A DNA stretch of 34,436 nucleotides from an uncultured Myxococcales bacterium (GTDB lineage Bacteria > Myxococcota > Myxococcia > Myxococcales > Myxococcaceae). Every line of letters begins with the position of its first letter. Positions within the stretch are counted from its first letter, which is position 1. Positions 9,518 to 32,002 of this stretch are shown in pieces. The position numbers and the translations under genes are program-made. Under the pieces are notes generated by a model, which was given only the letters and a program-made list of their open reading frames with translations, was not told where the DNA came from and did not search any database. The stretch covers positions 1 to 34,436 of the forward strand of contig CAIWFK010000221.1 of NCBI GenBank assembly GCA_903911905.1. The letters run 5' to 3'.

Positions 9518-9643
9518 GACGCTCGGGGAACAACTTCCGACTCCCGGGCAACTGCCTCGGACGCGCGGGGAACAGCTCCCGACTCCCGGGCCACTGCCCC
9601 GGACGCTCGGGTGACCGCTTCCAACTCCCGGGCTCCTGCCCCG
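9518..9643. repeat. Six 21-bp units (three 42-bp copies) in tandem
   Basis: Units start at 9518, 9539, 9560, 9581, 9602 and 9623, alternating between a GACGCNCGGG-type and a GACTCCCGGG-type half; the first two 42-bp copies differ at about 5 positions. The unit is a multiple of three, so all frames stay open and encode seven-residue repeats on either strand. None of these frames has a credible start or a family match, and I treat the tract as intergenic. It makes up about a third of the 362-bp gap 9428-9789; the remainder holds the hairpin at 9439 and nothing else recognisable before the -10-like element at 9778. Confidence 0.75.
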
Positions 9644-28732: not shown

Positions 28733-29797
28733 ATGCGGCGCGCGTGGGTCCTCCTGCTGGTGGTGGCGTGTGGTGGCACTCCGCCGGGCGAGGACGGAGG
28801 GGTGAACGTCGACGCGGGCGCTCCTCCCGATGGAGGCCGGGGTGATGCCGGTCGTGACGACGCTGGCGTCGGGGATGCAGGTGCAGACGCTGGCGTCACG
28901 GACGCCGGAGCCGGCGCGGGCGTGGACGCCGGGCCCGCCGACGCTGGCGAAGCGGTCGACGCCGGGCCGGTGGTGACCTGCACCGCGGGCGGGCTCCCTG
29001 GCACCTGCATCGACGTGGCGAGCTGCATCGGCACCCGCGCGCCGACTGCGGGGCTGTGCCCGGGAGCGGCGAACATTCAGTGTTGCACCCCGCGCACGGC
29101 GGTCAGTTGCGACTGGAACGCGCGGCCGCTGCCCAATGCTGGCCTGGTCGAAGAGCCGGGCGTCGGCGGGTGCCCGGCGGGCATGCTGCGCGTCGACACC
29201 TTCTGCGTGGACCGCTTCGAGGCCTCGCTCGAGGAGGTCGTCGACGGCGGCACGGTTCCGTTTTCTCCCTATTTCAACCCGGGCTCGACGCGGGTGGTCG
29301 CCCGTTCGCTACGCGGCGCGGTGCCCAACGGCTACGTGTCGGGGCTGCAGGCGGCGGCCGCGTGCGCCGAGGCGGGCAAGCGGCTGTGCACCGACGTCGA
29401 ATGGCTGCGCGCCTGTCGTGGGCCGACCTCGACCATCTACCCCTACGGGAACACGCGCCTGCCTGGCGTCTGCAACGACGCCCGCAGCGTGCACCCGGCC
29501 ATCGAGCTGTATGGGACGAGCGCGACGTGGATCTACAGTCACATCGACAGCCCGTGCCTCGATGAGCTCGACGCGGGGCTGGCGCTCACCGGTTCGCACC
29601 CGGGCTGCGTGTCGGCCGAGGGCGCGTTCGACCTGATGGGCAACCTGCACGAGTGGACGGCAGACCCCAACGGCACGTTTCGGGGCGGGTACTATGTCGA
29701 CACCGTGCTCAATGGAGATGGGTGCCTGTACGTGACGACCGCGCACAACACCGCCCATTGGGACTATTCGACGGGGTTTCGCTGCTGTGCCAACTGA
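28733..29797 (+). CDS. Lipoprotein with SUMF1/formylglycine-enzyme-like domain
   Basis: The 354-residue protein starts MRRAWVLLLVVACGG (lipobox VVAC, Cys13). Residues about 20-75 are an Asp/Ala/Gly linker built on DAG and DAGxG repeats, a common lipoprotein spacer in myxobacteria. A small Cys-rich stretch (about 82-130) precedes the SUMF1 domain (about 140-354): FCVDRFEASLEEV, SGLQAAAACAEAGKRLCTDVEWLRACRG, IYPYGNTRLPG, DLMGNLHEWTADPNG and a final STGFRCCAN. The fold matches formylglycine-generating enzyme, but most such bacterial lipoproteins lack the paired active-site Cys of true FGE, and I cannot confirm them here. No sulfatase gene is nearby. It overlaps the next gene by 11 bp. Confidence 0.85.
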   Translation: MRRAWVLLLVVACGGTPPGEDGGVNVDAGAPPDGGRGDAGRDDAGVGDAGADAGVTDAGAGAGVDAGPADAGEAVDAGPVVTCTAGGLPGTCIDVASCIGTRAPTAGLCPGAANIQCCTPRTAVSCDWNARPLPNAGLVEEPGVGGCPAGMLRVDTFCVDRFEASLEEVVDGGTVPFSPYFNPGSTRVVARSLRGAVPNGYVSGLQAAAACAEAGKRLCTDVEWLRACRGPTSTIYPYGNTRLPGVCNDARSVHPAIELYGTSATWIYSHIDSPCLDELDAGLALTGSHPGCVSAEGAFDLMGNLHEWTADPNGTFRGGYYVDTVLNGDGCLYVTTAHNTAHWDYSTGFRCCAN

Positions 29798-30623
29798 ACT
29801 GGTCGACCTGGTTGCGCCCGATGGGGTTCGCTCGCAGGCCCGCTTCACGGCCGCCACGAGCCCGCGCGCGGTGACGGTGTTGCTGCCGGCGATGGGCGTC
29901 AACGCTCGCAGCTACGACGGGCTGGCGCGCGCGTTGAGCCACCATGGCGTGTCGACGCTGGTCGCCGAGCACCGCGGAGGTGATTCTTCGTCGGTGCGGG
30001 CGCGACGGGGCACGGACTACGGCTACGCCGAGGTGCTCAGCGAGTTGCCGTTGCTGGTCGAGGCCGCGAGTGCGCGTGTGCCCGGCCTTCCGGTCGACCT
30101 GCTCGGGCACTCCATGGGCGGGCAACTGGGAGTCGCGGCGCTCAGTCGGTGGCATCGGGCGGGTGCGCGGCTGGTGCTGGTGGCGAGCGGCACCGTGCAT
30201 CACCGCGCGTGGACCGGGGTGTCGTCGCTGGGCATTCTGCTCGGCACCACGGTGGCCGAGGGCGTGGCGCGTACGCTGGGGTTCTTTCCCGGGCATCGGC
30301 TGGGGTTCGGCGGCCTGCAGGGGCGCTCGCTCATCGTCGACTGGGCGCGGGCCTCGCGCACGGGCATCTTCGCCAGCGGCGGAGCATCGTTCGAGCAGGG
30401 GCTCGACGTGCCGCTCGAGGTGCTGACGGTATCGGTGCTGGGCGACACCTATGCCCCGCCTGCGGCGACGAGGCATCTGGTGGCGAAGCTCTCGCATGCG
30501 ACGGTGAAGACGCTGTCGGTGGCGCCACCTGCCGAGCCGCGGCGACTCAACCCGCACTTCCGGTGGCTGCGCGAGCCAGACGCCGTCGCTGCGCCAGTCG
30601 CCGAGTTCCTCGCGCGACAGTGA
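29787..30623 (+). CDS. Alpha/beta hydrolase
   Basis: The GTG start lies 11 bp inside the end of the SUMF1 lipoprotein gene, in another frame, so the pair is probably translationally coupled. The 278-residue enzyme has the nucleophile elbow GHSMGG (Ser near residue 112), a Gly-free oxyanion strand (VTVLLPAMGVNARSYDGLARAL), an acidic residue in SVLGDTYAPP (about 219) and a His in NPHFRW (about 257), giving a Ser-Asp-His triad. LPAMGV in place of HG near the oxyanion hole is typical of the lysophospholipase/serine aminopeptidase S33-like group. There is no signal peptide, so it acts in the cytoplasm. The substrate is unknown; a 700-bp repeat array follows. Confidence 0.88.
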   Translation: MPTELVDLVAPDGVRSQARFTAATSPRAVTVLLPAMGVNARSYDGLARALSHHGVSTLVAEHRGGDSSSVRARRGTDYGYAEVLSELPLLVEAASARVPGLPVDLLGHSMGGQLGVAALSRWHRAGARLVLVASGTVHHRAWTGVSSLGILLGTTVAEGVARTLGFFPGHRLGFGGLQGRSLIVDWARASRTGIFASGGASFEQGLDVPLEVLTVSVLGDTYAPPAATRHLVAKLSHATVKTLSVAPPAEPRRLNPHFRWLREPDAVAAPVAEFLARQ

Positions 30624-30677
30624 ACTCGTGTCGGCGCACCTTCGGAGCGACGTCATCACGACGCTCCATCACCCGGT

Positions 30678-31300
30678 CTCACCGCGTCGACTCACCGTCG
30701 GTGCGACGTCTTCGCGTCGTCTCAAGGTCGATTCGGTCTCCCCGCCGTCGGCTCGGTGCCAGTACGACGCTGCACGGTCGGTGCGGGCTCATCGCGCCGA
30801 CACACCGTCGGCGCGACCCCGTTGCGACGACTCACCACCGCGGAGACGTCATCGCGTCGTTGCACGGGCGGTGCGGTCTCACCCACGCCGGCTCACCGTC
30901 GGTGGGGCGTCATGACGTGGGCTCACCGTCAGTGCGACGCTGCACGGTCGGTGCAGGCTCATCGCGCCGACACACCGTCGGTGCGACCCCGTTGCGGCGA
31001 CTCACCACCGCGGAGACGTCATCGCGTCGTTGCACGGCCGGTGCGGTCTCACCCACGCCGGCTCACCGTCGGTGGGGTCATGAGGTCGGCTCACCGTCAG
31101 CGCGACCCCGTTGCGACGACTCACCACCGCTGAGACGTCATCACGTCGTTGCACGGGCGGGTGCGGTCTCACCCACGTCGGCTCACCGTCGGTGGGGGGG
31201 CGTCATGACGTGGGCTCACCGTCAGTGCGACGCTGCACGGTCGGTGCAGGCTCATCGCGTCGGCTCACCGCCAGTGCGGCCCCGTCGGTGCGACCCCACC
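30678..31300. repeat. Nested tandem repeat array
   Basis: The core consists of two full imperfect copies of about 170 bp (30761-30930 and 30931-31098) and two partial ones (31099-31223 and from 31224). Each copy is itself built from smaller blocks: roughly 61 bp, 30 bp, 61 bp and 18 bp, mostly opening with CTCACCGTCGGTG or close variants (about ten). CACCG-T-CGGTG is itself an inverted repeat, and CGTCATGACG palindromes recur at 30908-30917 and 31201-31210. Copy lengths of 170, 168 and 125 bp are not all multiples of three, so reading frames shift between copies and the frame crossing it is not a gene. It fills the 737-bp gap between the hydrolase and the lipoprotein; apart from it I see only a -10-like element at 31348. 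Confidence 0.85.
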
Positions 31301-31347
31301 GCGTCGACACTCCCGCGTGAGGTAATCAATCGGGGGGGATTCGGCCG

Positions 31348-31353
31348 TATGCT
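31348..31353 (+). promoter_or_regulatory. -10-like element before the Gly-rich lipoprotein
   Basis: TATGCT lies 7 nt before the ATG at 31361. A G-run at 31332-31338 could be a ribosome site for an alternative ATG at 31349, so the start is not settled. Confidence 0.35.
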
Positions 31354-31360
31354 TCCGCCC

Positions 31361-32002
31361 ATGCGCCGCTTCGCCATGCTCTTCGCCCTCGTCGCCATCT
31401 CTGGTTGTGGCTCGACCTCAGGCCCTGATGCCGGCGCGACGGGCGGAGGCATGGCGACGGGTGGTGGCTCAGCGACCGGTGGCGGTTCCTCGACCGGCGG
31501 CGGTGCAGCGACGGGAGGCGGCACCACCACGGGCGGCGGCACCGCGACCGGTGGCAGTGGCGGCGGCACCGCGACCGGTGGCAGTGGCGGAGGCGGCGTC
31601 ACCGGCTGTCAGGTCACCATCTCGGGCGCGCTCACTGGCACCCGCGCCTGCACCCTGAGCGTGGTGGGTGACGATGTCTCGGTCGTCTCCCTCATCATCA
31701 GCACGCCGAACGACCACCAACTGGTGCTCAGCTCGACCTTCACCCAGATGCGGCCGCTCTCGGTCGGTACCTTCACCGACGCTCCGTGGTCAGGCGTGAT
31801 GAACGTCATCAGCAACGACACCCTGGCCTGGAACCAGTCGCTCGGCGCCGGCACCGTCACCAGCGGCAGCTTCTCGCTCTCGGTGACGGCGGTCGGCACC
31901 TTCACCAACTCGGTGGGCTCGGGTCAGCACGGCAGCCTGACCGGCGTGCTCAAGCCCATCAGCCATACCGACCCCGACGTGAACGTCTCGGTGACGTTCT
32001 GA
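31361..32002 (+). CDS. Gly-rich-linker lipoprotein of unknown function
   Basis: The ATG at 31361 (MRRFAMLFALVAISGCGS) gives a 213-residue lipoprotein with lipobox ISGC (Cys16); the ATG at 31349 adds four residues and cannot be excluded. Residues about 25-80 are a flexible linker of TGGG-X repeats in six-residue steps (ATGGGS, TTGGGT and variants). The remaining 130 residues are a beta-rich domain (VTISGALTGTRACTLSVV, LVLSSTFTQMRPLSVGTF, GSFSLSVTAVGTFT) without catalytic signature and with two Cys (in GCQVT and RACTL) likely paired. The frame continues upstream through the repeat array, but that part is not gene-like. It is followed by convergent argJ with a 9-bp gap. Confidence 0.8.
   Translation: MRRFAMLFALVAISGCGSTSGPDAGATGGGMATGGGSATGGGSSTGGGAATGGGTTTGGGTATGGSGGGTATGGSGGGGVTGCQVTISGALTGTRACTLSVVGDDVSVVSLIISTPNDHQLVLSSTFTQMRPLSVGTFTDAPWSGVMNVISNDTLAWNQSLGAGTVTSGSFSLSVTAVGTFTNSVGSGQHGSLTGVLKPISHTDPDVNVSVTF

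Follow-up and report, generated by a model that had tools for sequence, protein, structure and literature searches.

Introduction

Bacterial intergenic DNA is compact. Several described repeat systems resemble the array considered here. The sopC/parS_F locus of the F plasmid consists of twelve 43-bp direct repeats and contains ten ParB sites, each a 16-bp inverted repeat (PMC6238139). Jeffreys described a core of ≈15 bases that is shared by the repeats of various minisatellites (PMC2782130). The GTAG/CGTC super-families of REP elements have an unpaired terminal tag, and occur predominantly as head-to-head dimers, while head-to-tail dimers are rare (PMC3733652). Dispersed non-coding satellites are found in Leptospira interrogans and Methanocella conradii, and are described as rare in prokaryotes (PMC6749651).

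Here, we describe a family of intergenic, non-coding arrays, restricted to one genome, that share a palindromic core, a fixed spacing and a head-to-tail order of their units. The genome is a 7.57-Mb draft in 907 contigs. The largest of the ≈30 arrays found, which contains long duplications, lies on contig C221; this contig, at its full length of 34,436 nt, is referred to as the window. The arrays have a partition-type architecture, i.e., direct repeats at a fixed step, each containing a single palindromic site.

Organization of the array in the window

The repeat unit consists of the palindrome CACCGWCGGTG, followed by a spacer of 19–20 nt. A nested repeat array had originally been predicted at 30678–31300. 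An array was indeed present, with its limits shifted to a few bases earlier at the start and to ≈31310 at the end (Table 1). The nesting was also borne out: Tandem Repeats Finder (TRF) detected a period of 170 bp at 30746–31106 (2.1 copies, 92% matches, score 620), and self-BLAST aligned 30760–30938 with 30930–31106 at 94.4% identity (E = 1e-77) and 30769–31012 with 31061–31303 at 88% (E = 4e-82). Higher-order copies of ≈170 bp are thus superimposed on sub-units of ≈30 bp. These results support the repeated unequal duplication that had been proposed, as far as the 170-bp copies are concerned, and the array appears to have been enlarged recently in this way. A 37-nt reference matched 14 copies in the array, mostly spaced by 30 nt, and most of these copies start with CTCACC, TGCACG or CACACC. 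The CGTCATGACG palindrome found in the spacer is specific to this array, and was not among the listed spacers of the others. Codon scores were negative in all six frames, in agreement with the claim that the array is non-coding; one forward frame is open from 30149 to 32002, by accident.

No array was found downstream of the hydrolase homologues in the nearest relatives (54–55% identity). The gene for ArgJ lies beyond that for the predicted lipoprotein; in relatives, the homologues of the hydrolase and ArgJ are not adjacent and are not accompanied by the array. A Pfam search with the lipoprotein gave no match. The protein carries an ATGGGS-repeat linker, and in-frame repeats of 18 and 27 nt at 31435–31594 correspond to this type of linker, directly past the lipobox. 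Other repeats in the window include a 42-bp repeat in three copies at 9518–9643, with a sub-period of 21 bp (TRF score 175), and a 27-bp repeat (GACGCTGGCGTCACGGATGCCGGTGCA) at 28859–28923, near the start of a gene with an FGE-sulfatase domain, which is likely to be a low-complexity linker.

Table 1. Features of the array, its flanks and the transposase matches. Positions are those of the window unless a contig is given.
Feature	Position	Strand	Basis or remark
Alpha/beta hydrolase gene, upstream flank	29787..30623	+	Pfam PF12146
Predicted lipoprotein gene, downstream flank	31361..32002	+	Signal peptide and lipobox read directly; codon score
Whole array	30674..31310	.	≈20 units of ≈30 bp in head-to-tail order, each a palindromic core of 11 bp plus a 19–20-bp spacer; begins and fades approximately there
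First higher-order copy, ≈170 bp	30760..30929	+	Self-BLAST, 94.4% to 30930–31106; TRF period 170
Second higher-order copy, ≈170 bp	30930..31106	+	TRF, self-BLAST
Third higher-order copy, rearranged/partial	31061..31303	+	88% to 30769–31012
Exact core CACCGTCGGTG	30693..30703	.	Exact pattern match
Exact core CACCGTCGGTG	30894..30904	.	Exact pattern match
Exact core CACCGTCGGTG	30973..30983	.	Exact pattern match
Exact core CACCGTCGGTG	31064..31074	.	Exact pattern match
Exact core CACCGTCGGTG	31184..31194	.	Exact pattern match
CGTCATGACG palindrome in spacer	≈30908..30917; second copy ≈31201–31210	.	Read by eye
Y1_Tnp (REP-associated/IS200-like) matches	C729:3243–3485; C588:7528–7740		Just over family cut-off

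Related arrays in the same genome

The original prediction was to be refuted if, among other things, the blocks were found nowhere else. In fact, the core and its spacing recur in ≈30 other intergenic regions of this genome. CACCGWCGGTG occurs 113 times genome-wide, compared to seven times for the reversed control, and a relaxed double unit, defined as two cores at a distance of 29–31 bp, was counted 73 times over both strands, compared to once in the control. Intergenic DNA was analyzed in a 1.46-Mb sample of contigs, partly selected for the core and partly arbitrary, in which genes were called with a simple codon model. The 139 kb of intergenic DNA in this sample contained 51 exact cores, compared to none for two control palindromes, and CACCGWCGGTG was its commonest 11-mer. 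Core-to-core distances in this DNA peaked at 30, 60, 90 and 120 bp, and 37 of the 51 exact cores had a neighboring core at 27–33 bp, compared to 1–5 at other offsets.

A total of 33 intergenic arrays were found, with 2–17 detectable units each, one of which was probably counted twice due to an assembly break. The ends of contigs C53 (L021:12094–12341) and C184 (L050:6065–6217) carry closely similar arrays, the spacers of which match in reverse complement; these are probably a single locus at which the array itself broke the assembly. Arbitrarily picked contigs (440 kb) yielded three exact cores and one array, which, together with the whole-genome counts, suggests that the list of arrays is near complete. 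Two arrays on different contigs (L130:1686–1901 and L031:2530–2669) have nearly the same spacer (GGAGCGGCTCTTCGACGCCG and GGAGCGGCTCCTCGACGCCT, respectively), suggesting that units may occasionally be copied between loci.

The neighbors of the arrays are mixed housekeeping genes, including those for MnmE, SelB, an RlmN-like radical SAM protein, RibBA, PanD, kinases and transporters. The flanking genes are convergent in six cases, tandem in 14 and divergent in seven. Control of a regulon was considered and rejected, as the flanking genes had no functional theme and lay in all orientations.

Core, spacer and step

The core and a step of 30–31 bp are common to all arrays, and the spacers are array-specific. 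Identity between cores was 0.83 both within and between arrays, a figure that was partly preset by the choice of units by core match. Spacer identity was 0.57 within an array and 0.42 between arrays, compared to 0.37 for shuffled sequences. With equal core identity within and between arrays and array-specific spacers, the 33 arrays thus have the makeup of a tandem family with a shared core. When the comparison was made at a fixed offset of 30, where the second copy was not selected for its core, core identity was ≈0.18 above the background, and flank identity ≈0.07 above it.

The palindrome continues outward, with C at position −2 and G at +2 in ≈83% of symmetrized spacers, leading to an extended palindromic site of 15 bp, roughly CG-CACCGWCGGTG-CG. 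The spacers also have a weak consensus in common (score 139, versus 62 ± 5 for shuffles), and their center, 15 bp from the core center, is A/T-rich in a genome with 69% GC. Many core sites are degenerate, with at least two mismatches. Substitutions in one arm of the core are common and mostly uncompensated, as would be expected of a double-stranded DNA site.

The units are arranged head-to-tail: within arrays, spacer identity was 0.566 in the direct orientation versus 0.241 in the inverted one, and direct spacer pairs outnumbered inverted ones by 55 to 3, or by 16 to 0 at an identity of at least 0.7. The mean step is ≈30.2 bp, slightly under three helical turns (31.5 bp at 10.5 bp per turn). 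Among pairs of cores whose flanks matched at the level of random intergenic DNA, 22 had a step of 30 bp and 14 had a step of 31 bp, corresponding to 36 of the 53 such pairs within 12–45 bp. Since the step is kept where the flanks are unrelated, recent duplication is insufficient to explain it. This leaves selection on the step, or old duplications in which the spacers were randomized without insertions or deletions; keeping the step in this way would, again, require selection.

Distribution in other genomes

The original prediction had proposed a search of this genome and its relatives, and the outcome was divided: the repeat recurs across this genome, and its arrays were found in none of the 95 other family genomes searched. 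CACCGWCGGTG arrays were found in no other Myxococcaceae genome among the 96 family genomes searched, in which the genus is represented by this genome alone; the search of relatives covered arrays built on this core. There were 34 double units in this genome, compared to 0–3 in each of the 95 others. A 49-position profile trained on the arrays gave at least 62 matches here (best E = 7e-10), including the training arrays, which match their own profile by construction. In other family genomes, the profile gave at most seven weak matches each (best 1.3e-4); the match in one relative (G104) was rejected as a coding low-complexity repeat. Direct DNA similarity to the array in the window was limited to one stray match in 60 relatives, besides the source genome itself.

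Exact double units were present in 24 records from ≈85,000 species, nearly all of them coding TDG/VGG-type repeats or isolated pairs. A double-unit match in NZ_RAVW01000020 (Corallococcus exercitus) lies at the coordinates of the one in family genome G090, which points to Myxococcaceae as the family. Plasmid and phage searches gave no similarity; one short viral contig holds a single core pair. In seven relatives (G005, G025, G073, G085, G001, G071 and G078), the single CACCGWCGGTG was 5–15 times more common than the reversed control, without 30-bp pairs; these single cores are probably coding TDG/VG codons. Literature searches yielded no report of comparable arrays in myxobacteria. The confinement of the family to one genome implies that a function, if there is one, would be of recent origin or limited to the species.

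Discussion

The shared palindrome, the fixed step near three helical turns and the indifference to neighboring genes lead us to favor a reading in which the arrays are multi-site binding platforms for a putative dimeric DNA-binding protein, with the array in the window recently enlarged by 170-bp duplications. We put the probability of this reading at roughly 0.45. The original prediction had named a structured RNA, a multi-site protein-binding platform and a recombination-prone spacer as options, and of these, the platform is the best fit to the conserved palindromic core, the fixed 30–31-bp step and the lack of clear compensation. The putative protein would bind in a sequence-specific manner, with dimers sitting next to each other on almost the same helical face, and the bound dimers might then form a multi-protomer complex at loci dispersed over the chromosome. 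Its role could be in chromosome organization or local roadblocking, rather than in the control of a single regulon, and the arrays would grow and shrink via unequal recombination between units. Protein binding, cooperativity and a biological role are what we infer from the DNA sequence. The persistence of the step between units with unlike spacers would be expected if the spacing of bound proteins were under selection, and the arrays predict a definite putative binding site, CGCACCGWCGGTGCG, spaced by 30. A stronger version, in which a species-specific, chromosome-wide set of ≈30 centromere-like platforms for a putative dimeric protein, with a selected 30–31-bp step, would undergo fast turnover while core and spacing are held, seems rather unlikely to us.

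The palindrome might instead be a hotspot for recombination or replication slippage that drives tandem amplification, making the arrays neutral or selfish elements akin to the minisatellites of Jeffreys. The recombination-prone spacer of the original prediction is compatible with the data in this sense, and we consider it possible, ranking it as the main rival and not as the best reading. It would account for a core that is shared between loci with locus-specific spacers, for the strict head-to-tail order of the units, for the recent 170-bp duplications in the window, for the restriction to one genome and for neighbors that lack a functional theme. However, independent slippage should vary the period, and the step is 30–31 bp in nearly every array, even where the spacers are unrelated; moreover, the cores are better kept than the flanks when the second copy is not selected. 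The platform and minisatellite readings are not exclusive, since retention of the core and expansion of the arrays could both follow from a core that is bound by protein or prone to recombination. Should the sites prove not to be bound by any protein, the arrays would provide a bacterial counterpart to the core-driven minisatellites of Jeffreys, which would be of interest as well.

We consider it improbable that the units are palindromes of the REP type that were dispersed by a tyrosine transposase (RAYT/TnpA-REP), or by a similar enzyme, and tandemized secondarily. REPs are likewise short intergenic palindromes with high copy number, and the genome encodes two Y1_Tnp proteins, with matches just above the cut-off, but the contigs that carry these do not appear in the list of core pairs (a list of pairs, not of single cores), and the core can form no more than a 4-bp stem around a 3-nt loop. 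Furthermore, the units are direct repeats, whereas REPs favor head-to-head dimers (PMC3733652), and tags within 15 bp of the 51 exact cores were at chance level (one GTAG with 2.1 expected, one CTAC with 1.8 expected and 11 CGTC with 9.9 expected). The statement that the array is not a REP was therefore upheld by the missing GTAG/CGTC tag and the wrong orientation. The same was true for CRISPR, which was rejected: the 11–15-bp core falls short of a 20-nt repeat, the neighbors examined were housekeeping genes with no cas among them, and the spacers are related within several arrays. It is very improbable that the arrays specify a structured non-coding RNA or consecutive RNA hairpins. The forward strand of the whole array in the window folded better than 20 shuffles (z = −4.0), but a large tandem duplication alone can raise the folding energy, the reverse strand gave z = −1.4, and pieces of 130–147 nt from several arrays ranged from z = −3.1 to +2.2 with DNA parameters. 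Double substitutions were palindromic in 15 cases and non-palindromic in 12, without clear compensation. There was no Rfam match above threshold (the best, sub-threshold match had 18.8 versus 48 bits), and a promoter and terminator scan found no sigma-70-like promoter and no intrinsic terminator. With folding energies that are inconsistent between strands and arrays, and no covariation, the RNA option was left unsupported. Least probable of all is that the arrays are decayed coding repeats, i.e., the remains of lipoprotein linkers with TDG motifs encoded by ACCGACGGT. One gene in this genome does contain a 30-nt repeat in frame (LTDGGLPDAG) that includes the same 11-mer, and TDG linkers account for most matches in other species; however, this reading is largely refuted by the negative codon scores in every frame of nearly all arrays, by stops inside many frames and by the frequent 31-nt steps. 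The LTDGGLPDAG repeat is found at the ends of contigs C82 (L022:4491–4591) and C484 (L132:9111–9151), which probably represent one gene at which the assembly was broken by the repeat.

Comparison with known systems

Like sopC/parS_F of the F plasmid, the arrays consist of head-to-tail repeats with one palindromic site each and a fixed step, and would likewise be bound by dimers. They differ from sopC/parS_F in the step of 30–31 bp and the site of ≈11–15 bp, in spacers that are unrelated between arrays, in having no known ParB partner, and in the presence of ≈30 arrays in a housekeeping context on one chromosome instead of a single locus. With REP/BIME elements (PMC3733652), the arrays have in common the occurrence of short palindromes between genes at many places in a single genome; unlike these, they have no terminal tag and no head-to-head dimers, and consist of an odd-length, short-armed palindrome in direct, fixed-step arrays. 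As in the minisatellites of Jeffreys (PMC2782130), different tandem arrays contain one short core in otherwise different repeats, but here they are bacterial and short (2–20 units), with a palindromic core and a near-constant unit of 30–31 bp. The satellites of Leptospira interrogans and Methanocella conradii are also species-restricted, non-coding tandem arrays distributed across one genome (PMC6749651). In contrast to those, it is the core and the step that are common to the arrays described here, not the whole repeat, and the core is palindromic. Dispersed non-coding satellites are reported to be rare (PMC6749651), and here a single genome contains ≈30 arrays that have just a palindrome and its spacing in common.
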